NCBI RefSeq assembly: GCF_024267655.1
Contig: NZ_CP100595.1
Location: 992,001 to 1,056,000 of the forward strand
Direction: 5' to 3'
DNA length: 64,000 nucleotides
Source: Arcobacter roscoffensis
Lineage (GTDB): Bacteria; Campylobacterota; Campylobacteria; Campylobacterales; Arcobacteraceae
The notes beneath the pieces are model-generated. The model had not been told where the DNA came from and did not search any database. It was given only the letters and a program-made list of their open reading frames with translations. Below are positions 51,969-63,787 of this stretch, in pieces. Numbering within the stretch: the stretch's first letter is position 1; every line of letters starts with the position of its first letter. A program made the position numbers and the translations under genes.

Positions 51969-52883
51969 TTAGACAAAATAGTTTAAAACAAAGATTATAA
52001 ACAGTATAGATAGTAAAGTTTGTACTGTTATAATTGAAGACATTAAGTTTATATCTCCACCAAGTTGTCTTGCTAGTACAAAAGAGGAGGGTGCTGTTGG
52101 AAGTACCGCAAAGATGATAAGTATTGAAATCATAAAGTCATCTAAATTAAAAAGTTTAGCTACTAAAAACATGATTATGGGTGTTATGATTAGCTTTGCT
52201 AAATTTGCATTAAATATTTCATTTTTAGATGAGTTTATCTCTTTTAGAACAAGTCCAAAGCCAACTGATAAAAGTCCTAGTGGAAGTGCTGCTGAGCTTA
52301 AAATGGCTAATATTTTATCTGCTATTACAGGAAGCTGTACCCCTAAAAAATTTATCATACCTCCTATGAAGCAAGCTATTATCAAAGGATTTGTGATTAT
52401 TGATTTAAGCAAATATATAAAAGTTAATTTATTGTTATTTATATAAAGTGCAAAACTTGAAATACAAAGTATATTTATAAATGGAATAACAAAAGTCATT
52501 AATATTGCTGCTAAAACAAGACCTTTATCTCCAAAAATAGAATCAACTAAAGCTAAAAAAACGTATGTATTAAATCTAATACCACCTTGTACAATAGATG
52601 TAAAAGCATCACCTTTGAATTTGAATAGTTTATTTATTATAATTAGAAGTATAAAAACAAAGCTAATAGCAAAAATTGCAGTAGCTACAAAGTTTAATCC
52701 ATCTACTCCTTTAAGGTTTGCAGTTGAGAGTTTATAAATCAAAAGTGATGGCATCAAAATAAAGTATGTTAATTTGTCAGCTTGAGGCCAAAACTCTTTT
52801 GATGGGAATTTGATTTTTTTTAAGAAGTAACCAATCATAATCAGCGAAAAGATAGGAATTAGTGCTGTAAAAATATGTATCAT
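51969..52883 (-). CDS. AEC-family (auxin efflux carrier-like) transporter
   Basis: The 304-residue protein has ten predicted helices in two halves, with ALIPIFSLIMIGYFLKKIKFPSKEFW at the start, and LPLGLLSVGFGL and LPTAPSSFVLARQLGGDINLMSSIITVQTL (in part) near the end. Bacterial AEC members move malonate, malate or other organic anions. The substrate is unknown. It is divergent from the PAS kinase gene; the gap holds TTGAAAC repeats, which might also affect it. Confidence 0.88.
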   Translation of the reverse strand: MIHIFTALIPIFSLIMIGYFLKKIKFPSKEFWPQADKLTYFILMPSLLIYKLSTANLKGVDGLNFVATAIFAISFVFILLIIINKLFKFKGDAFTSIVQGGIRFNTYVFLALVDSIFGDKGLVLAAILMTFVIPFINILCISSFALYINNNKLTFIYLLKSIITNPLIIACFIGGMINFLGVQLPVIADKILAILSSAALPLGLLSVGFGLVLKEINSSKNEIFNANLAKLIITPIIMFLVAKLFNLDDFMISILIIFAVLPTAPSSFVLARQLGGDINLMSSIITVQTLLSILFIIFVLNYFV

Positions 52884-52912: not shown

Positions 52913-52951
52913 GTTTCAATATAATCTAAACAATTGAAACAATTTTGAAAC
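52913..52951. promoter_or_regulatory. TTGAAAC repeats before the PAS kinase
   Basis: TTGAAAC occurs at 52934-52940 and 52945-52951, an 11-base period, and in inverted form GTTTCAA at 52913-52919. The same sequence TTGAAACAATTTTGAAAC precedes the TAXI gene. This fits a shared site of the OmpR-family regulator encoded here, with autoregulation. Confidence 0.7.
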
Positions 52952-52990
52952 TTTAGAATTATAGATTAAAAATATATAGGATAAGATTAA

Positions 52991-55600
52991 ATGCTTTTTA
53001 AAAATGAAAAAAAATACACTCTTTATGATATACAAAAGCTTTTTTCTCAAATCCCTGTGATATTTATAATGATATTTGCAAGTTTATTTATTGTAATTTC
53101 ATATTTTATTTTAGAAGCTAAAGAAAATAGAGAAATAGATCTTTTAAAACAAAAATCTTTTTTAAGCTATAAGTTTGAAAAAAAAGAACAAATTATTGAT
53201 TTTAAGTCAAAAGTAGAAGAGCAGCTAAAAGAAGGCTTTTTAGAAGAAGAAACTTTATTAAAAAAAGTAACTTATAAAGCTATTGGTTATTTAGAATCAA
53301 ACTCTTTATCAAAGTTTGATTTACTTACAGATTATTTACAAAAAATAGAAAAACAAAACCACATAGAACTAGTAGTATTTACAAAAGATAATCTAAATAT
53401 TTTATATGGAAAAGATTCAATTAGTTATTTACAAAAGTTAATATTTAATTCAGATACAAAAAATCATGAAAATATAACATTGAAGTATATTTACTCTCAA
53501 GGGCAAAGTAACCTTCAATATTGGAAGGATGATTTAAAAAGAACAGTTAGATTAAGCTTTTTTGATAAGATAACTATAAATGGCTATGAGTATTTTGTGG
53601 GTTCATTTTCTACTATTAATTCCATAAAAGAAATCACTAAAAGCTCTATAATGAGCACAATTTCAAATCAAAATTATGATATATGGTTTTATGATATTAT
53701 CTCCCAAGATACTTTTAATTTTAATGCTAAGAAAAAAAATATAAAATCTAATGAACTACTTAAAAATAAAGATGATAATATCTCATATAAGATTTTAGAA
53801 CATTATTTTAAAGATTATGAATATAATAAAAAATTTAAAGATTATACCTACTTTTATGATAAGTATAATTTTTTGATAGTAAGTTTTTATGATGAAAATG
53901 AAATCAACGATGAAATGAAATATACTGTAAAACAAATAAAAAAAGAGTATCTAAATCAGTTTTTTCAAATATCAACATTGATTATAATTATAACTACTGT
54001 TTTTATACTTTTTACATATATCTTCTCTAATTTTATTAAAAATATTTTCAATGAATACAATGATGAACTTGAAGGTAAAACTTTATCTTTGGAGCATTGG
54101 AAAAAAAGATTTGAACTTGCTATTATTGCTTCAAATGATGGATTATGGGATATTGATTTCAAAACTAAAAAGATATACTTTTCTGATAAATGGCTTGAAA
54201 TGTTTGCTTATGAAAAGCAAGAATTACAAACATTTTCAGATTGGTTTGAACTAATTCATAATGAAGATAAAAAAAATGTAGAAAAGCTTTTTGATAAAAT
54301 CTTTGCAAAAGTTGATGATACTTTTATTTGTGAGTATAGACTAAAAACAAAAAATGATGGTTTCAAATGGGTACTTGCACGTGGAAAAGCCTTTGTAAAT
54401 GACAAAAACGAACTAGATAGAATGCTTATGATGTCAATGGATATAGATAAAAATAAAAGAATGAAAAAAGAACTTTTAGATGTTGAATATCTTGTTGAAG
54501 ATGGGAAAATCGTAATCTTTAAACTTAAAAATGATGAGAATTTATCAGTTCAATATATCTCAAATAGTATTAAGTCTTTTGGCTATACAAAAAAGAATTT
54601 TGAACAAAAAGAAATGAATTTTTTAAATCTAATTCATAAAGAAGATACAAACAAAGTTCAAGTAGCAATAAATGCAGCACTTAAAAATGATCTTCCAAAT
54701 TTTACAGTTGTATGTAGAGTAAAAAATGCAGCAAATGAAACTAGATGGATTTCATCAAGAGTAATACTTATCAAAAATCATTCAGGAAAAGTTTCTCATT
54801 TTTACGGTTATATAAATGACATAACAAAAATCAAGTTAAGTGAAGAAGACCTAAAACTAAAAGTTGAAGATGAAGTAAAGAAAAATAGAGAAAAAGATAG
54901 AATTTTAATTCAACAAAGTAAGTTAGCAGCTATGGGAGAAATGCTTGGAAATATAGCACACCAGTGGAGGCAGCCTCTAAATAATATCTCTTTAATCATG
55001 CAGTTTTTAAGAGATAACTATAAAAATGAAGCAGTTAGTGAGCAAAAACTAGATAAGTTTATGAATAAAGCAAATAAACATATAGAGTATATGAGTGAAA
55101 CAATAGATGATTTTAGAAACTTCTATAAACCCTCAAAAACTCAAGATAAATTTAGCATAAAAGATTGTATAAACACACTTTTATATATGATAAAAAATCA
55201 GTATGAAAGTGATGGTGTTAGAATAGAGTTTGAATGTGAAGATATAATAATCATTAACTATGAAAATGAATTAAAGCAAGCATTACTGAATATCTTAAAC
55301 AATGCAAAAGATGCTTTATTAATCAAAAAAGAGAATAAAAAGTTTGATGCAACTATCAAAATAGTAGTAAAGAAACAAGATGATAAACTAAAAATAGAAA
55401 TCTTAAATAACGGTGATAATATTAAAAATGATATAATAGATAGGATTTTTGAACCCTATTTTACTACAAAGTTTGAGACTCAAGGTACGGGAATAGGGCT
55501 TTATATGACAAAATCAATAATTGAGACAAATATGAAAGGAAAAATTCAAGTTGAAAATATAAAAGATGGTGTGAAGTTTATAATCACATTAAATATTTGA
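52991..55600 (+). CDS. Membrane sensor histidine kinase with two PAS domains
   Basis: The 869-residue protein has a helix (about 20-42), a large periplasmic sensor (about 43-325) of Cache-like type, a second helix (about 327-348), PAS 1 (about 370-490, NDGLWDIDFKTKKIYFSDKWLEMF, in part), PAS 2 (about 505-620) and a kinase core. The H-box is GEMLGNIAHQWRQPLNNISL and the HATPase closes with GTGIGLYMTKSII. AGGA lies 8 bases before the ATG. It is followed after 15 bases by its response-regulator gene. The shared repeats suggest that the pair controls the TAXI-TRAP operon. Confidence 0.92.
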   Translation: MLFKNEKKYTLYDIQKLFSQIPVIFIMIFASLFIVISYFILEAKENREIDLLKQKSFLSYKFEKKEQIIDFKSKVEEQLKEGFLEEETLLKKVTYKAIGYLESNSLSKFDLLTDYLQKIEKQNHIELVVFTKDNLNILYGKDSISYLQKLIFNSDTKNHENITLKYIYSQGQSNLQYWKDDLKRTVRLSFFDKITINGYEYFVGSFSTINSIKEITKSSIMSTISNQNYDIWFYDIISQDTFNFNAKKKNIKSNELLKNKDDNISYKILEHYFKDYEYNKKFKDYTYFYDKYNFLIVSFYDENEINDEMKYTVKQIKKEYLNQFFQISTLIIIITTVFILFTYIFSNFIKNIFNEYNDELEGKTLSLEHWKKRFELAIIASNDGLWDIDFKTKKIYFSDKWLEMFAYEKQELQTFSDWFELIHNEDKKNVEKLFDKIFAKVDDTFICEYRLKTKNDGFKWVLARGKAFVNDKNELDRMLMMSMDIDKNKRMKKELLDVEYLVEDGKIVIFKLKNDENLSVQYISNSIKSFGYTKKNFEQKEMNFLNLIHKEDTNKVQVAINAALKNDLPNFTVVCRVKNAANETRWISSRVILIKNHSGKVSHFYGYINDITKIKLSEEDLKLKVEDEVKKNREKDRILIQQSKLAAMGEMLGNIAHQWRQPLNNISLIMQFLRDNYKNEAVSEQKLDKFMNKANKHIEYMSETIDDFRNFYKPSKTQDKFSIKDCINTLLYMIKNQYESDGVRIEFECEDIIIINYENELKQALLNILNNAKDALLIKKENKKFDATIKIVVKKQDDKLKIEILNNGDNIKNDIIDRIFEPYFTTKFETQGTGIGLYMTKSIIETNMKGKIQVENIKDGVKFIITLNI

Positions 55601-55615
55601 AACAGGATATAAAAA

Positions 55616-56323
55616 ATGAGTGAAATAATTACAAGAGTTTTATTAGTAGAAGATGAAGAAGATGCAAGAGAAATATTGGAGTTTTATTTAGATACGATTT
55701 TTGATGAAGTGCAAATCGCTTGTGATGGAGAACAAGGTTTAGAGCTATATAAAAAATATCATGATGAAAATAAAACCTTTGACTTAGTTCTAACAGATAT
55801 AAAAATGCCAAATAAAGATGGTCTTTCAATGATTGATGATATAACAGTTTTAAATGAAAATCAAAAGTTCATCATAGTATCAGCATATAAAGATGAAGAA
55901 TACCTATTTCGATCAATAGGACTAAATGTAATCTCATATTTCGTTAAACCCCTAGAAGTAAAAACAGTAATGGAAATGTTAAAAAAAGTAAAAACAAAAG
56001 TCCTAGAAGATAAATCATCAAAACAAGAAGACTTAGATGAAGTAATAAAGCTAAATCAGACCTACTCATATAATAGAAAAACAAATTTATTATACAAAAA
56101 TGATGAGCTAATAAATCTATCAAAAAAAGAGACATTATTAATACAAGCTCTAATCACAAATATAAAAGAGATAAAAACAAAAGAGTACCTAAAAGAGTTC
56201 ATCTGGAATGACTCAAATACCTCAGATGCCACAATGCGTACAGTTATTAAAAGAGTAAAAGATAAAGTATCAGATGATGACTTTATTGTTTCTAAGAAAG
56301 GGCTTGGTTATATAGTTGAGTAA
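55616..56323 (+). CDS. OmpR-family response regulator
   Basis: The 235-residue protein has a receiver with E12-D13-E14, phospho-acceptor D61 in LVLTDIKMPNKDG and K111 in SYFVKPLEV. A C-terminal winged helix has KKETLLIQALITN, DATMRTVIKRVKDKV and VSKKGLGYIVE. OmpR-family proteins bind 11-bp direct repeats, as found before its kinase gene and the TAXI gene. It is co-transcribed with the kinase. Confidence 0.92.
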   Translation: MSEIITRVLLVEDEEDAREILEFYLDTIFDEVQIACDGEQGLELYKKYHDENKTFDLVLTDIKMPNKDGLSMIDDITVLNENQKFIIVSAYKDEEYLFRSIGLNVISYFVKPLEVKTVMEMLKKVKTKVLEDKSSKQEDLDEVIKLNQTYSYNRKTNLLYKNDELINLSKKETLLIQALITNIKEIKTKEYLKEFIWNDSNTSDATMRTVIKRVKDKVSDDDFIVSKKGLGYIVE

Positions 56324-56384
56324 TAGAACTTTGTAATACTAATTGAATTAGAACTAACACACCCTTTTTTAGTATTGTTTTTCT

Positions 56385-56648
56385 TTATACATCTAATTTG
56401 ATTTTATTAGAAGCGAACTGATGTATAAGCATCTGAATTAGTGTTTGATATGGGATAGAGTTTTCTAAAGCTTTCTTTTTTAGTTCATAAATATCATTTT
56501 CATTTATTCTTATAGATATTGCTTTTTTCTTTTGATTTTTTATGTATGACTGTAGTTCTTTTAATCTATCTTCTTTATTGTTTCTGCTTTCCCATTCGTT
56601 ATTTTCAACACTTTGCAAAATATCATTTTCAAATTTGTCAAGAGTCAT
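56385..56648 (-). CDS. Antitoxin of a BrnTA/CopG-type pair
   Basis: The 87-residue protein is charged, with a C-terminal ribbon-helix-helix-like segment AISIRINENDIYELKKKALENSIPYQTLIQMLIHQF (in part), the usual pattern of CopG-type antitoxins that act on DNA and toxin. The N-terminal part (KFENDILQSVENNEWES) is typical of antitoxins paired with BrnT-like toxins. It overlaps the upstream toxin gene by 11 bases. It probably represses the operon. Confidence 0.82.
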   Translation of the reverse strand: MTLDKFENDILQSVENNEWESRNNKEDRLKELQSYIKNQKKKAISIRINENDIYELKKKALENSIPYQTLIQMLIHQFASNKIKLDV

Positions 56649-56940
56649 TTTTTGCTCCTTTATTATATTTTTTATTCATTTGTCTTGAAGGTATAATCGT
56701 TTTTAAAAATATTGATTTTTCATCTTCTACATAAGGAACTAAATATACATAATCTTTTATTTTTATTAAAATTATAAAAATATTTTGATTTGGATATTTG
56801 TTTTTATTTGGATGTTCTATATCATCCAATAGATTACCCTCTTCAATACTTAAAATCACATCTTCAAAACTAATATTTCTATCTCTCTTCAGAATTTCAT
56901 TTTTTTCTAAAGAATATCTTATAGTTTTATTTTTAAACAT
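56638..56940 (-). CDS. BrnT-like toxin
   Basis: The 100-residue protein has the BrnT/RelE-like order: N-terminal KNEILKRDRNISFEDVILSIEEGNLLDDIEHPN (in part), then the strands IFIILIKIKDYVYLVPYVEDE and the closing FLKTIIPSRQMNKKYNKG. The family comprises ribonuclease toxins that stop translation. It lies before its antitoxin with an 11-base overlap. The pair sits between the response-regulator gene and the TAXI gene and looks like an insertion there. Confidence 0.8.
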   Translation of the reverse strand: MFKNKTIRYSLEKNEILKRDRNISFEDVILSIEEGNLLDDIEHPNKNKYPNQNIFIILIKIKDYVYLVPYVEDEKSIFLKTIIPSRQMNKKYNKGAKNDS

Positions 56941-57259
56941 AATTAATCCTATATATACAATGTATTTTATATTCTTTTATTTTTATTGTCAAGTTATTTT
57001 AGCAATTAAATTTTAGTAGTATTGTTTTTATGTCAAATTGTAATAATTTTATATTTTAAATCATTATTTATATTTGATTTTAAGTAAATATAGATTCTGT
57101 AAAGTTTCAAAGTTAATAGATTTTTTGTATATAATAAATGATAAATCTCCCATAAATAAGGATGTTTAAAACAAATTTATAAATTTGAAACAATTTTGAA
57201 ACAATTTTGTTTCAAAATGTGTTATACTTCTTCTAGTACAAAAACTAAGGAGAAATAAG
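56941..57259. promoter_or_regulatory. Intergenic region before the TAXI gene with TTGAAAC repeats
   Basis: The 319-base gap has no gene. TTGAAAC lies at 57185-57191 and 57196-57202 (11-base period), followed by inverted GTTTCAA at 57209-57215, just before the -10 box TATACT at 57223-57228. A further GTTTCAA lies at 57104-57110. The repeats match those before the PAS kinase gene. Their place over the -35 region fits activation by an OmpR-type regulator. AAGGAG gives the TAXI start. Confidence 0.72.
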
Positions 57260-58279
57260 ATGTCTAAAATATCAATCTTAAAAAAACTTTTTGTTACATC
57301 AGCAATCACAGCTACAATGATTACTGGTGCCAATGCAGCAAAAAAAGAGTCTAAGTATGTAATTGCAACGGCAAGTACAGGTGGAACTTACTATCCAGTA
57401 GGTGTTGGAATTGCAACTATTGCTTCACTTAAATTAGCAAAAAAACATAAAACAACATTTTCTGCTATCACATCTGCTGGAAGTGGTGAAAATGTAGATA
57501 TGCTTCAAAAAGGTGAAGTAAACTTTGCTATTTTACAAGGGCTTTTTGGTTCTATGGCTTGGCAAGGAAAAGCTAAATATGAAGGTCAGCCAAAGAAAAA
57601 CTTAAGATCTATTACTATGTTATGGCAAAATGTTGAGCAGTTTACTATAAGAAAAGAGTTTGCTAAAACTGGAAATATTATGGATTTACAAAATCTTTAT
57701 GATGAAAGATTCTCAATTGGTGGAAGAAGTTCTGGTTCAAGGGTTTCAGCTGAAACTATTATGAGCTCATTAGATGTAGACTTTAATAAAATGAATATTC
57801 AATACTTAGGGTATACTCCCTCATCAACTGCTCTTCAAGATGGTAAAATCGATGGTATGAACACTCCCTCAGGACCTCCAACATCAGCTGTTACAAATGC
57901 TTTTGCTTCTATTGGAAATGATAAAATTAAAGTTTTAGATTTTAATGAAAAAGATTTAAAGAAAATCAACGACAACTATCCTGTATGGACTCCATTTACT
58001 ATTAAATCAGGTACATATCCAGGACAAACAGAAGATATCAATACAATCGCACAACCAAACTTATTAGTTGTTACAAAAGATACACCAGAAGAGACAGTAT
58101 ATCTTTTAACTAAAACGATTTATGAAAACTTACCATTTTTAAATAGTGTTCATAAAGCTACAAAAGCAATGAGTTTAGACAAAGCAATTTCAGGTCTTCC
58201 TATGCCCCTACATCCAGGTGCAGTAAGATTTTATAAAGAACAAGGTATTAAAATCCCAGCTACTTTAATGGCAAAATAA
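57260..58279 (+). CDS. TAXI-family TRAP transporter binding protein
   Basis: The 339-residue precursor has a signal peptide (cleavage after TGANA) and the TAXI pattern YVIATASTGGTYYPVGVGIATI, SAGSGENVDMLQKGEVNFAILQG and SIGGRSSGSRVSAETIM (parts). TAXI proteins bind small dicarboxylates or amino acids such as glutamate or 2-oxoglutarate and hand them to a DctQM membrane unit. The next gene is that unit. The following LUD and 2-hydroxyglutarate-oxidase-like genes suggest a 2-hydroxy acid as ligand; this is inference. Confidence 0.92.
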   Translation: MSKISILKKLFVTSAITATMITGANAAKKESKYVIATASTGGTYYPVGVGIATIASLKLAKKHKTTFSAITSAGSGENVDMLQKGEVNFAILQGLFGSMAWQGKAKYEGQPKKNLRSITMLWQNVEQFTIRKEFAKTGNIMDLQNLYDERFSIGGRSSGSRVSAETIMSSLDVDFNKMNIQYLGYTPSSTALQDGKIDGMNTPSGPPTSAVTNAFASIGNDKIKVLDFNEKDLKKINDNYPVWTPFTIKSGTYPGQTEDINTIAQPNLLVVTKDTPEETVYLLTKTIYENLPFLNSVHKATKAMSLDKAISGLPMPLHPGAVRFYKEQGIKIPATLMAK

Positions 58280-58383: not shown

Positions 58384-60333
58384 ATGATAAAAATAAAATA
58401 CTTTAAAGAAATTACCTTTATTTACGCAATCTTTATATCATTATTTCATTTTGGTATAAATGTTTGGGGTGGATTAAGTGATTTATGGTTTAACTCCGCG
58501 CACTTTGCACTTTTGGCTTCACTTGGATTTTTGACATATGAAGCAAGTAAAAATGAAAATCAAGTTTCCATTTTAAATTTAGTCTTTGCAGTTTTGTCAT
58601 TGGCTACTTTTATATATATGATGGCTTTTGAAGAGAGCCTTTATGCCGTTGCTAATGGTCAAATGAGAACAAGTGATTTAATAGTAGCTTCAATGACAAT
58701 TGTTTTAGCTATTGAGATGGTTAGAAAATCAACAGGTTATGTAATTCCTTCCATTATCGTGTTTTGTATTGCATATTTGCTATTTTTAGGTCAGCATTTT
58801 GAAGGTGTTTTTGCTTTTGGTGGAATGACTGTAGATAGATTTTTATATAGAATGTTCTATACAAATGAAGGTTTATTTGGTCCAATTGCAACAATTTCTT
58901 CAACATATGTATTTATGTTTATTCTTTTTGCTGCTTTCTTATTAAAATCAGGAGCAGGGGACTTTATAGTAGATGTGGCAAATGCTGTTGCTGGTAAATA
59001 TACAGGTGGAACTGGTCATGTTGCTGTTATCTCTTCAGCTATGATGGGAACAATCTCAGGTTCAGCAGTTGCAAATACCGTATCAACTGGATCTATTACA
59101 ATTCCTATGATGCAAAAAGCAGGATTCAAATCCAAATTCGCAGCAGCAGTTGAAGCAGCAGCTAGTACGGGTGGACAAATCATGCCTCCTATTATGGGAG
59201 CAGGGGCTTTTATCATGGCTCAGATGACTCATATTCCATTTGTTACTATTATTTCTGTATCTATTTTACCTGCTATTTTATATTTTGCTTCTATTGCATT
59301 TTATATAAATATTCATGCAAAAGAAAATAATGTAAGAGGTGAAAAAAGTGATGTTAAAATCCTTCCTATTTTAAGAGAAGGTTTTCACTTTATTATTCCA
59401 CTTTCTACTTTAGTTGGATTATTAATTTATGGATTTACTCCTACTTATGCAGCTGGTATTGCAATAGTTGCAATTGTTTTATCTTCATATCTTACAAAAA
59501 ATAAAAGAATGGGTATAAAAGAGATTTTAGGTGCTTTAGCCCTTGGTTCTCAAAATATGATTGTAACAGGTGTTTTACTTATTGCAGTTGGAATCATAGT
59601 AGGGATTATTAATATTTCAGGTATTGGTATTACTTTCTCTCAGTTAATTATGGAATGGTCTGGTAATTCACTATTAATCGCAATTGTATTAGTTGCTATT
59701 GCTTCTCTTATTTTAGGGATGGGATTGCCTGTAACTGCATCTTATGTTGTATTATCGGTACTATCAGCACCAGCATTAGTTGGTCTTATGCTAAGTCCTG
59801 AAATGGCAGCTTTAGTAAATGCAGGTATTCAAATTCCTGAAGTTACTATGTATTTATTATCAGCACACTTGATAATCTTTTGGTTATCACAAGATTCTAA
59901 CCTTACACCACCTGTGTGTCTTGCAGCATTTGCAGCAGCTGCAATTGCAAAAACACCACCAATGGCTACAGGTATGACTTCTTGGAAAGTTGGAAAAGGT
60001 ATGTATATTATTCCACTACTTTTTGCCTTCACTCCTCTTATCAATGGTACTTGGTTTGAGAGATTTGAGGTATTTGGATTTGCTTTATTTGGAATCATGG
60101 CATTTTCCATTGTTATGGAAGGATACTGGGATAAAAAAATGAGTATTTTAGAAAGAGTTGTATTTGCTGTTGCAGCTGTTCTTTTACTTACTCCTGATAG
60201 TGCTTTTGGTCTTGAAAGTTATTTAGGTTTAATTCAAAATACGCATATCTTAGGATTTGGGATTTTTGCTGTATCTATGGTAATGCATAAAATTTTATCA
60301 AAGGAGGAGAGAGCTTATGCAAAAGCTAATTAA
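58384..60333 (+). CDS. TRAP transporter fused permease (DctQM type)
   Basis: The 649-residue protein has about 16 helices: four or five of the small DctQ-like unit and the large DctM unit, with GGTGHVAVISSAMMGTISGSAVANTVSTGSITIPMM and STGGQIMPPIMGAGAFIMA (parts). The fused permease is the standard partner of TAXI proteins. It couples substrate uptake to sodium or protons. It overlaps the LUD-domain gene by 17 bases. Confidence 0.93.
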   Translation: MIKIKYFKEITFIYAIFISLFHFGINVWGGLSDLWFNSAHFALLASLGFLTYEASKNENQVSILNLVFAVLSLATFIYMMAFEESLYAVANGQMRTSDLIVASMTIVLAIEMVRKSTGYVIPSIIVFCIAYLLFLGQHFEGVFAFGGMTVDRFLYRMFYTNEGLFGPIATISSTYVFMFILFAAFLLKSGAGDFIVDVANAVAGKYTGGTGHVAVISSAMMGTISGSAVANTVSTGSITIPMMQKAGFKSKFAAAVEAAASTGGQIMPPIMGAGAFIMAQMTHIPFVTIISVSILPAILYFASIAFYINIHAKENNVRGEKSDVKILPILREGFHFIIPLSTLVGLLIYGFTPTYAAGIAIVAIVLSSYLTKNKRMGIKEILGALALGSQNMIVTGVLLIAVGIIVGIINISGIGITFSQLIMEWSGNSLLIAIVLVAIASLILGMGLPVTASYVVLSVLSAPALVGLMLSPEMAALVNAGIQIPEVTMYLLSAHLIIFWLSQDSNLTPPVCLAAFAAAAIAKTPPMATGMTSWKVGKGMYIIPLLFAFTPLINGTWFERFEVFGFALFGIMAFSIVMEGYWDKKMSILERVVFAVAAVLLLTPDSAFGLESYLGLIQNTHILGFGIFAVSMVMHKILSKEERAYAKAN

Positions 60334-60913
60334 TACACTTGAAAGTTGTGGTTACAAAGTACATAACGCAAAAGATAAAAAAGAAGCTTTAGAAATATCA
60401 AAGATTTATATAAAGGAGGGAATCTCTGTAGGTCTTGGAGGTTCTACTTCTGTTGGGCAGATTGGATTACTTGATTTTCTTGTAAATAATAAAAATATTA
60501 CTTTATACAATCAGTATGAAAAAGGTATTTCTATGGAAGAAAATACAAAGAGAAGAAGAGAAGGTATGCTTACTGATTTATATGTTACAGGTACTAATGC
60601 ATTAACTAAAGATGGGAAACTAGTAAATGCAGATGGCAGTGGAAATAGAGTCGCAGCTATGATTTTTGGACCTAAAAAGGTTTTAGTAATTGTAGGAAAA
60701 AATAAAATTGTAAATTCTGTAGAAGAAGGCTTTGATAGGGTTATGAATGTAGCTGCTGTTAAAAATATTGATAGAATGAATAAAAAAGCTATTGAAATGG
60801 GAAAAGAACCAAGACACAATTTAGATAATGCTGCAAATAAATTTACTTATATAAAAGCAGATGAAAAAGATAGAATAGTATTGATTTTAGTAGATGAAGA
60901 ATTGGGGTTTTAA
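60317..60913 (+). CDS. LUD-domain protein (LutC/DUF1121-like)
   Basis: The 198-residue protein has the LUD-domain pattern GISVGLGGSTSVGQIGLLDFL, LYVTGTNALTKDGKLVNADGSGNRVAAMIFGPKKVLVIVGKNK and KNIDRMNKKA (parts). LutC is one of three subunits of an L-lactate oxidase in other bacteria, but stand-alone LUD proteins of this size have no firm function. It overlaps the TRAP permease by 17 bases and is one base before the oxidase gene. It may help handle a 2-hydroxy acid. Confidence 0.85.
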   Translation: MQKLINTLESCGYKVHNAKDKKEALEISKIYIKEGISVGLGGSTSVGQIGLLDFLVNNKNITLYNQYEKGISMEENTKRRREGMLTDLYVTGTNALTKDGKLVNADGSGNRVAAMIFGPKKVLVIVGKNKIVNSVEEGFDRVMNVAAVKNIDRMNKKAIEMGKEPRHNLDNAANKFTYIKADEKDRIVLILVDEELGF

Positions 60914-60914
60914 G

Positions 60915-62111
60915 ATGTATGATTATTTGATTATAGGGGCAGGTATTATAGGATTAAATATTGCTAAAAACTTAAAACAGAGATTCCCTCAAAGCAAAAT
61001 TTTGGTGATAGAAAAAGAAAATGAAGTAGGCTTTCATAGTTCAGGACGAAATTCAGGGGTTCTTCATGCAGGCTTTTACTATACAGCAAATTCTTTGAAA
61101 GCTAAGTTCACAAAAGAGGGAAATGCAGCTTTAAAAGAGTTTGTTAAAAGCAGAGGATTACAACTTAATGAGTGTCAAAAAGTTGTAGTTGCAACAAATG
61201 ATAAAGAAGTTGAGGGATTAGAAGAACTTAAAAGAAGAGGAGATATTAATGGAGTTGAGCTTATATGGTTGGACGAAAAACAATTATCTGAGCTTTATCC
61301 AAATATTAAAACTTATAAAAAAGCACTTCTATGTCCAAGTACAGCAACAGTAAATCCAAAAGAAGTAACAAAAGAGTTTGCAAAAGTTATTGAAGAAATG
61401 GGAGTTGAGTTACTTTTAGATTGTAAATATATTTCAAGTAATAGCAATGTTGTATCTACAAGTGCTGGAGATTTTCAAACTACAAAAGTGATTAATTGTG
61501 CAGGATTATATGCTGATAATATTGCTAGAGATTTTGGTTTTTCAAAAGATTATGTGATTATTCCATTTAAAGGTATTTATTTAAAAGATAAAAAAAATGA
61601 ATCGAATCTTAAAACAAATATTTATCCTGTGCCAAATTTAGAAAACCCATTTTTGGGAGTTCATTATACTTTAACTGTAGATAATGAAAGTAAGATTGGG
61701 CCTACAGCTATTCCTGCATTTTGGAGAGAAAATTACAAAGGTTTTGATAACTTCTCTTTAAAAGAGTTTATTCAGATTCTGTATTATGAATCAAAACTGT
61801 TTATTACAAATGCCTTTGGCTTTAGAAGTTTGGCTTTTGCAGAGATGAGAAAGTATTCACTTTCTCATTTAAAAGGATTAGCTCAAACATTAAGTAACAA
61901 AAAAATGGACCATAAAGGTTTTGATTCATGGTCAACGCCAGGAATTAGAGCTCAATTGTTAAATAAAAACACATTAGAGCTAGTGCAAGATTTTGTTGTT
62001 GAATCTGATGAAAATTCAGTACATGTTTTAAATGCAGTAAGTCCTGCATTTACATCTTCAATACCTTTCGCGAACTGGGTAGTAGAGGAGCATGTTTTAA
62101 AAAGTAAATAA
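60915..62111 (+). CDS. lhgO: L-2-hydroxyglutarate oxidase-like flavoprotein
   Basis: The 398-residue protein starts at the ATG at 60915, one base after the LUD stop; a frame to 60894 overlaps that gene. It has the FAD-binding DYLIIGAGIIGLNIAKNL, HSSGRNSGVLHAGFYYTANSLKA and VINCAGLYADNIARDFG, typical of LhgO/YgaF. These enzymes oxidise L-2-hydroxyglutarate to 2-oxoglutarate and pass electrons to quinone. Its place after a TAXI-TRAP transporter suggests uptake and oxidation of this or a related 2-hydroxy acid. Other DAO-fold oxidases are the alternative. Confidence 0.88.
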   Translation: MYDYLIIGAGIIGLNIAKNLKQRFPQSKILVIEKENEVGFHSSGRNSGVLHAGFYYTANSLKAKFTKEGNAALKEFVKSRGLQLNECQKVVVATNDKEVEGLEELKRRGDINGVELIWLDEKQLSELYPNIKTYKKALLCPSTATVNPKEVTKEFAKVIEEMGVELLLDCKYISSNSNVVSTSAGDFQTTKVINCAGLYADNIARDFGFSKDYVIIPFKGIYLKDKKNESNLKTNIYPVPNLENPFLGVHYTLTVDNESKIGPTAIPAFWRENYKGFDNFSLKEFIQILYYESKLFITNAFGFRSLAFAEMRKYSLSHLKGLAQTLSNKKMDHKGFDSWSTPGIRAQLLNKNTLELVQDFVVESDENSVHVLNAVSPAFTSSIPFANWVVEEHVLKSK

Positions 62112-62118
62112 TATAGGA

Positions 62119-63156
62119 TTATTTAGGGAATGTAAGGCTTACCTTCGTTCCCACTTGAACTTCACTTCTAATATCTATTTGTATTTCTAATATATCACAA
62201 AGCTTTCTTACAATACTCATTCCAATACCAAGACCATTTTCATTCTCTTTATAGTATCTTTGAAATACTTTATTTGTATCTTTTATTCCTACACCTGTGT
62301 CTTCTATGATAAGGCTATTATTCTCTATACTTATGATTACTTTTCCATTTTTTTTGTTATATTTACAAGCATTTGTTAGAAGGTTGTCTATGATTCTATC
62401 AACTGCATTTTTGTTGCTTTTGATAGTTAAATCATCTTGTAGCTTTTCAAAAGAGACTCTTGGATATAGCTTTTCTAAAAGCTCTATTTTATTATCAATT
62501 AGTTCTTTTAGTGAGATTTCTTCATCTTTTATAATTTGTTGAGGATTTATAAATTCTAAATTTTTATATAAAGATGAGATTGTTTTAGCACTTAATTCTA
62601 TTCTCTCAATCTCTTTAAAATCACCTTTTCTTCTTAAAAGTTTTGTGTTTAATAAAATAGATGTAGCAGGAGTATTTAAATCATGTATCAAGTCTTTTAA
62701 GAATGTCTCTAGTAGATTTACAGCCTCTTTCATAGGTCTTATTGAGTACATGGCAAAGGCTATAGATATAAGAAGTATAAAAATGAAAATAACAATACTA
62801 AATTTAAATATTTTCATCAAAAAGTCATTATAAACTTTCTCATATTTGTTTTTATCATAGATTACTTTTAAAAGGTAAGGGTTTTTTGATGGTGTTTTAA
62901 AATAAGCACATAAACCTCCATCACACTCGTAGATTTTAAAAGTCTCTTTTTTATCACTATATTCAACAATATCTAAACTAAATTTATCACTTTGAAAATC
63001 AAAAGTATAGTCTTTCATCTGATATAAAATATTCTCTTTTATATATTTTATTCTATCTTGATGATACATATAAAGTACGATAAAAGCGAAGCTAATCAAA
63101 GGAATAAAAAACAAAAAAGTAGTTGTTAGTAAGGATTTCTTCTCATAGTTCTTCAA
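62119..63156 (-). CDS. Two-helix sensor histidine kinase
   Basis: The 345-residue protein starts at TTG, seven bases after AGGA, and overlaps the response-regulator gene by 14 bases. It has a helix (about 10-29), a short periplasmic loop (about 30-115) containing C-D-G-G-L-C, a second helix (about 120-142) and a kinase core. The H-box is DLIHDLNTPATSILL, and the HATPase has NLLTNACKYN and GLGIGMSIVRKL. The cysteine pair in the sensor loop could be redox-active. It is convergent with lhgO, 7 bases away. The signal is unknown. Confidence 0.88.
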   Translation of the reverse strand: MKNYEKKSLLTTTFLFFIPLISFAFIVLYMYHQDRIKYIKENILYQMKDYTFDFQSDKFSLDIVEYSDKKETFKIYECDGGLCAYFKTPSKNPYLLKVIYDKNKYEKVYNDFLMKIFKFSIVIFIFILLISIAFAMYSIRPMKEAVNLLETFLKDLIHDLNTPATSILLNTKLLRRKGDFKEIERIELSAKTISSLYKNLEFINPQQIIKDEEISLKELIDNKIELLEKLYPRVSFEKLQDDLTIKSNKNAVDRIIDNLLTNACKYNKKNGKVIISIENNSLIIEDTGVGIKDTNKVFQRYYKENENGLGIGMSIVRKLCDILEIQIDIRSEVQVGTKVSLTFPK

Positions 63157-63787
63157 GTTTGTATCCTATACCTTTTATATTTGTGATATTTAAATCAAAT
63201 GTTTTTTTTAGCTTACTTATCAAAACTCTAAGTGCTGTATCTGAGGGTTTATTCATATAGTCAAAAAAATCAGTTTTATTTACTGTAAGCCCTATATTTT
63301 TAATAAGAAGGGAAAATACATCTTTTTCTACGCTTCCTAGTGCTACTTCTTTTTCGTCTTGAAAAACTCTATTTTCAAGTAAATCAAAACTAATATTCTT
63401 ATAGTTTATAGTTGGATTTCTTCTTTTTAATGTGGCTTTAACACGTGCAAGAAGTTCATCTGGATCAAAAGGTTTTTTTATATAATCATCACATCCACAA
63501 TCAAAACCTTCAAGGGTAGATTTTGTATCAATAAGTGCAGTTATAAAAAATGTAGGAGTGTTGTCTTGGGCATCTCTTAGAAGTTTTAATGTTTCTTTTC
63601 CATTTAATAAAGGAACATTTATATCAAATAAATATAAGTCATATTTCTCTTCATATGTTGCTTCAAGTACTTCTTCACCATCATTTACCAAAGTAACATC
63701 ATAGTTCTCTTCTTCTAGTAAATCAAGTAAACTACTTGCTAAAACAGTATCATCTTCAAGTAATAGGATTTTTAGTTTTTTATTCAT
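63143..63787 (-). CDS. OmpR-family response regulator
   Basis: The 214-residue protein has a receiver with E11-D12-D13, the acceptor aspartate in LYLFDINVPLLNG and the lysine in DYIKKPFDP. The C-terminal winged helix has EKDVFSLLIKN, DTALRVLISKLKKTF and IKGIGYKLEEL. It overlaps the kinase gene by 14 bases and follows a truncated exported-protein gene after 2 bases. Confidence 0.92.
   Translation of the reverse strand: MNKKLKILLLEDDTVLASSLLDLLEEENYDVTLVNDGEEVLEATYEEKYDLYLFDINVPLLNGKETLKLLRDAQDNTPTFFITALIDTKSTLEGFDCGCDDYIKKPFDPDELLARVKATLKRRNPTINYKNISFDLLENRVFQDEKEVALGSVEKDVFSLLIKNIGLTVNKTDFFDYMNKPSDTALRVLISKLKKTFDLNITNIKGIGYKLEEL

Follow-up and report, generated by a model that had tools for sequence, protein, structure and literature searches.

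In a 64-kb window of the Arcobacter roscoffensis chromosome (the whole stretch of DNA analysed, 64,000 bp), a membrane histidine kinase and an OmpR/PhoB-type response regulator precede the operon of a TAXI-type TRAP transporter. Together they very probably form a private two-component uptake circuit, in which the regulator would activate the TAXI operon and hold its own gene in check. The kinase, judging by its domains and by the shared operon, would phosphorylate the neighbouring regulator. The latter is predicted by phylogenetic footprinting to bind tandem 11-bp direct repeats, TTGAAAC-AATT-TTGAAAC, which are conserved at its promoters and would be recognised at two places only. At the TAXI promoter, the repeats span about -50 to -33 and would substitute for a -35 element, a geometry from which activation of the TAXI–DctQM–LUD–L-2-hydroxyglutarate-oxidase operon would follow. 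At the regulator's own promoter, they lie just past the -10 box, and binding there would block transcription of the kinase–regulator pair. The transporter probably imports 2-hydroxyglutarate and/or 2-oxoglutarate, to judge by the gene of the oxidase and by a TAXI system described in the literature. The repeats are real and probably functional, and we infer from sequence the binding, phosphorylation, activation, repression and substrate that complete the circuit.

Operator sites and their conservation

The 18-mer TTGAAACAATTTTGAAAC is present twice in the window, on the + strand in both cases (exact 18-mer search; operators 1 and 2 in Table 1), precisely where the original prediction, made from the letters of this DNA, had placed it. 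These two sites are also the only exact matches to TTGAAAC-N4-TTGAAAC in the 3,154,193-bp genome, the opposite strand and a reversed control pattern each giving 0 exact matches genome-wide. A genome scan for further sites had been set as a test, and it did not find the repeat at many unrelated promoters. With up to three mismatches, the window contains 3 matches (0.8 expected); with up to two, the genome contains 118 compared to 107 for the control, which is background. Thus, the exact copies are distinctive and looser "sites" are not. A genome-wide search widened to one or two mismatches was rejected for the same reason, and the next-best triple repeat (G000:C1:1925950) lies inside the start of a LolA-like gene and was taken as chance.

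An inverted GTTTCAA accompanies each repeat pair, as had been predicted. On the kinase side it occupies positions 52913–52919 and is followed directly by TATAAT (52920–52925), on the upstream side of the repeats. The description of the TAXI repeats as abutting the TATACT box has to be corrected: 20 bp separate the end of operator 2 from the box, and the inverted GTTTCAA lies in between. A generic sigma-70 scan recovered neither the kinase nor the TAXI promoter proposed here, because neither has a good -35 element.

Conservation was analysed in 104 Arcobacteraceae genomes, with an identity of 60% or more defining an orthologous regulator. The regulator is found in 26 of them and an orthologous TAXI gene in 29, including all 26 with the regulator. 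The 17-mer TGAAACAATTTTGAAAC occurs 27 times in the family set (control, 0), and coordinate comparison places all 27 copies just upstream of the kinase or TAXI gene of this system. With up to one mismatch allowed, 26 of 28 TAXI promoters have it, as do 16 of the 21 kinase promoters. The mean majority fraction of the site columns is 0.94 at kinase promoters (n = 21; flanks, 0.47–0.53) and 0.98 at TAXI promoters (n = 25; flanks, 0.59–0.84). The gene order kinase–regulator–TAXI–DctQM–LUD–oxidase is largely conserved in the family. In six genomes (G091, G034, G001, G032, G033 and G064), the TAXI gene is separated from the regulator by kilobases or is on a different contig, and the site is nevertheless kept at both promoters, except for the kinase promoter of G064, which carries a single half-site. 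In G039, the TAXI gene is split into two reading frames (L120 143-1143), and neither an orthologous regulator nor an operator was found there. A correlation of the recognition helix with the half-site type was also considered, and was dropped when exceptions were seen.

With all 27 copies of the 17-mer at the promoters of its own system, the OmpR-type regulator is the best candidate for the binder, as originally proposed. The proposed link between the kinase and TRAP uptake gains support too, in that 26 of 26 genomes with the regulator carry TAXI and the site follows the TAXI gene where the two are separated. The AT-rich genome and the background level of relaxed patterns would fit matching repeats that merely reflect shared ancestry or chance and have no function. 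However, the sequence on either side of the kinase operator has drifted to background and the site itself has not, and the exact sites occur nowhere else in the 104 genomes, so that chance or mere ancestry is very unlikely. Furthermore, outside the family, the TAXI promoter of Sulfurospirillum-type metagenome-assembled genomes still carries direct repeats of TGAAAC, 11 bp apart (12 in one case), with a changed spacer.

The sites could also belong to another OmpR-family regulator, a paralogue or one of the PhosR/PhoB type, with the neighbouring one acting elsewhere. The genome holds a paralogous kinase–regulator–TAXI–TRAP system (G000:C1:2965569-2972103), whose regulator (G000:C1:2968807-2969508) is 52% identical, and a repeat architecture of this type is generic for PhoB-like regulators; the box of PhosR in C. 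jejuni, which we take to consist of GTTTC-type repeats, is presumably similar. Yet the 17-mer is present in none of the 29 family genomes that have the paralogue and lack both this regulator and this TAXI gene. The TAXI promoters of the paralogous system carry a different half-site, TG[TC]AA[TC], in units 11 bp apart (about ten genomes), and the paralogous kinase gene follows a truA-like gene and has no operator there. Nor does the genome contain further exact sites, as a global regulator would need. Ownership of the sites by another regulator is thus improbable. The paralogous TAXI system was also considered as a co-user of the site and rejected, its promoters having no TGAAAC pairs.

The repeat itself has the architecture of an operator of the PHO-box type, which supports its assignment to an OmpR-type regulator. 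The PHO box consists of two 11-nt units, each with seven conserved and four less conserved bases (PMC4415409). The sites described here likewise consist of direct 11-nt units (7 + 4), at TAXI upstream of a -10 box, and would be read by an OmpR/PhoB-type winged helix, but their half-site is TTGAAAC and they have two targets only. The regulator is a member of the OmpR/PhoB family (PF00072, 66.7 bits; PF00486, 38.8 bits; both above cut-off) and is not PhoB, as its score against the PhoB equivalog model TIGR02154 is 51.9 bits compared to a cut-off of 296.2.

Promoter geometry and the sign of regulation

In 19 of 25 TAXI promoters, 20 bp separate the end of the 17-mer from TATA[CA]T; in 5 others the distance is 19 bp. 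The combined pattern operator-N20-TATACT, with up to one mismatch, is found at 22 places in the family, which are 20 TAXI promoters (20 genomes) and two chance hits. An off-register control with the spacing one base shorter hit no TAXI promoter among the family members covered and gave two chance hits in total in 399 genomes. An operator that precedes the -10 box by an almost constant distance has the geometry of an activator site and would replace the -35 element. Compared with the classical case, for which we take phoA as the example, it presumably sits farther from this box by one 11-bp unit.

The kinase operator is positioned differently, downstream of the conserved GTTTCAATATAAT. In 13 of the 21 orthologous kinase promoters, the pattern GTTTCAWTATAMT, GTTTCA[AT]TATA[AC]T, precedes the operator by 4–9 bp. 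Seven genomes (G034, G001, G032, G033, G092, G099 and G093) have an operator that ends 10–17 bp before the kinase ATG, with TATAAT or TATACT on its upstream side. This distance leaves no room for a downstream promoter, so the bound regulator should block its own operon. The feedback of the regulator on its own gene, suggested originally with no sign attached, is supported, and a negative sign can be proposed from the operator position.

Several genomes weigh against the circuit in this form. Five genomes of the Halarcobacter group keep one clean half-site at the kinase promoter, adjoining TTGACT, a possible -35 element, so the autorepression geometry is not universal. In four genera, including A. 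roscoffensis, a TATAGAT-like stretch follows the kinase operator at 7–8 bp, which allows an activated second promoter. One genome, G050, has the kinase, regulator and TAXI genes and yet no recognisable operator, and G019 and G095 have TAXI and the site in assemblies (91% and 86% complete) in which the regulator was not found.

The TATAGAT-like stretch could serve as the -10 box of the kinase, in which case the regulator would activate both promoters and its autoregulation would be positive. TATAGAT is found at this distance from the second half-site here and in G091, G078 and G035. In G094, the TAXI gene is fused into the kinase operon, its own promoter site is lost, and the kinase-promoter operator lies directly upstream of TATAAT, which is again an activator geometry. 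In the seven genomes described above, however, the operator is too close to the ATG for such a promoter and the TATAAT or TATACT box is on its other side. Positive autoregulation is therefore the somewhat unlikely alternative to the autorepression favoured here, and the sign of autoregulation is less certain than the link itself.

Genes of the locus and the likely substrate

The kinase and regulator genes are separated by 15 bp in a conserved order, as befits a regulator with its cognate kinase in the same operon. The kinase (HisKA, PF00512; HATPase_c, PF02518) has an AlphaFold model with a pLDDT (predicted local distance difference test) of 88. Its periplasmic part has Cache/PDC-type structural matches with VIA Z-scores of about 8.3–11.7, among them WalK, PhoQ, CitA, DcuS, LuxQ and Tlp3. 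The Cache assignment is based on these Z-scores and a single weak dCache Pfam hit; a Foldseek search with the sensor domain gave no match below 1e-3. The TAXI binding protein, whose closest solved structure is another TAXI protein (9ibp), and the fused DctQM permease together make up a TAXI-TRAP transporter.

Table 1. Proposed regulatory elements and genes of the kinase–regulator–TAXI locus (positions in the window)
Feature	Position	Strand	Basis
AEC-family permease, divergent from kinase	51969..52883	-	PF03547
GTTTCAA fused to TATAAT: inverted half-site and proposed -10 box of the kinase–regulator promoter	52913..52925	+	sequence reading
Operator 1, TTGAAACAATTTTGAAAC, past the -10 box; putative site of autorepression	52934..52951	+	conserved columns
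Membrane histidine kinase: periplasmic Cache-type sensor, two PAS, HisKA, HATPase_c	52991..55600	+	Pfam, AlphaFold model
OmpR/PhoB-type response regulator (Response_reg, Trans_reg_C); candidate to bind operators 1 and 2	55616..56323	+	Pfam
Operator 2, TTGAAACAATTTTGAAAC, ahead of the TAXI -10 box; putative site of activation	57185..57202	+	conserved columns
Inverted GTTTCAA in a third 11-bp register; some genera only	57209..57215	+	26 aligned TAXI promoters
TATACT, putative TAXI -10 box; 20 bp between it and operator 2	57223..57228	+	promoter spacing
TAXI-family TRAP substrate-binding protein	57260..58279	+	NMT1_3, E 2e-114; TIGR02122, 288.3 (cut-off 84.35)
Fused TRAP permease (DctQM)	58384..60333	+	TIGR02123, 601.8 bits (cut-off 320.65)
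LUD-domain protein	60317..60913	+	PF02589
Flavin adenine dinucleotide (FAD) oxidoreductase, L-2-hydroxyglutarate oxidase family	60894..62111	+	NF008726, 333.3 bits (curated cut-off 299)

The gene of an L-2-hydroxyglutarate oxidase ends the operon in most genomes. The same pairing recurs in a number of Oceanospirillales: behind their TAXI-TRAP relatives (52–58% identity) there is often a gene for an L-2-hydroxyglutarate oxidase, an independent and strongly matching one (594–617 bits in the three tested), and no comparable kinase–regulator pair was detected beside TAXI in that group. For Proteus mirabilis, a TAXI-TRAP transporter with specificity for 2-oxoglutarate and 2-hydroxyglutarate has been reported (PMC12344293). 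Because the oxidase gene ends the operon and its linkage to TAXI recurs in the Oceanospirillales, 2-hydroxyglutarate and/or 2-oxoglutarate is the likely substrate of the transporter described here. The Proteus system thus resembles it in having a TAXI binding protein and the predicted class of substrate; the available part of its description is silent on regulation (PMC12344293).

The AEC-family permease gene shares its intergenic region with operator 1 and is a possible third target of the regulator. A divergent orthologue occupies the same place in five other genomes. In G083, the AEC permease gene adjoins the LUD gene at the opposite end of the locus, a position that hints at a functional tie to it. 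Two further gene pairs are found at the locus. Genes of a BrnT-like toxin and a CopG/BrnA-like antitoxin (weak Pfam scores; 56395–56940, - strand) are located between the regulator and TAXI genes, an interval that is only about 120 bp long in most relatives. A second pair of kinase and OmpR-type regulator genes (62119–63787) directly follows the oxidase gene on the opposite (-) strand, and no orthologous pair was seen beside the operon in the relatives compared.

TAXI as a co-sensor and relation to known systems

Two genomes keep the kinase, regulator and TAXI genes in the apparent absence of the permease. In G094, whose genome is complete, the regulator gene shares its last part with the TAXI reading frame, the LUD and oxidase genes were not found at the locus, and the genome has no orthologous permease, only a paralogue with 35% identity. 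G050 (86% complete) is the second such genome. The two TAXI genes (L116 9007-10708 and L117 5181-6913) come directly after the regulator gene or overlap it, and no permease gene was found close by, nor an orthologous one in either genome. An intact TAXI gene kept in this setting suggests that the protein acts as a co-sensor of the kinase. Tentatively, then, TAXI might be both the uptake receptor and a periplasmic co-sensor, which when loaded would report 2-hydroxyglutarate to a self-limiting switch; G094 and G050 would have kept the sensing half.

In LuxPQ of Vibrio, a binding protein is docked on a Cache-type kinase and the complex serves quorum sensing. Among the structures that match the kinase sensor is the periplasmic domain of LuxQ (Z 8.8), which offers a model for a TAXI co-sensor, but the likeness seen is a structural one, many other Cache domains match equally well, and the function in Vibrio is a different one. 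A parallel in arrangement is BctDE/bctCBA of Bordetella pertussis, a two-component system that lies beside, and activates, a binding-protein-dependent secondary transporter for citrate, and in which the binding protein BctC takes part in signalling (PMC5812351), the role proposed here for TAXI. Unlike the system described here, the Bordetella transporter is a tripartite tricarboxylate transporter and not TRAP, and basal bctDE expression is independent of citrate; autorepression through a shared operator is not described for BctDE in the available part of that source (PMC5812351).

Transporter-linked two-component systems are thus a known kind. New here are the family-wide evidence for an operator with two targets and its opposite positions at the kinase and TAXI promoters, together with the prediction of a substrate and the variants that lack a permease. 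A 2018 review describes TAXI-TRAP transporters as neglected (PMC5812351), and a literature search found no paper on their two-component control in this group and none linking a TRAP transporter to L-2-hydroxyglutarate. For tests in a culturable species of the Arcobacteraceae, the locus offers an operator and a regulator that are both exactly defined, along with predictions of the sign at either promoter and of the substrate, and its permease-less variants would allow sensing by TAXI to be separated from uptake.

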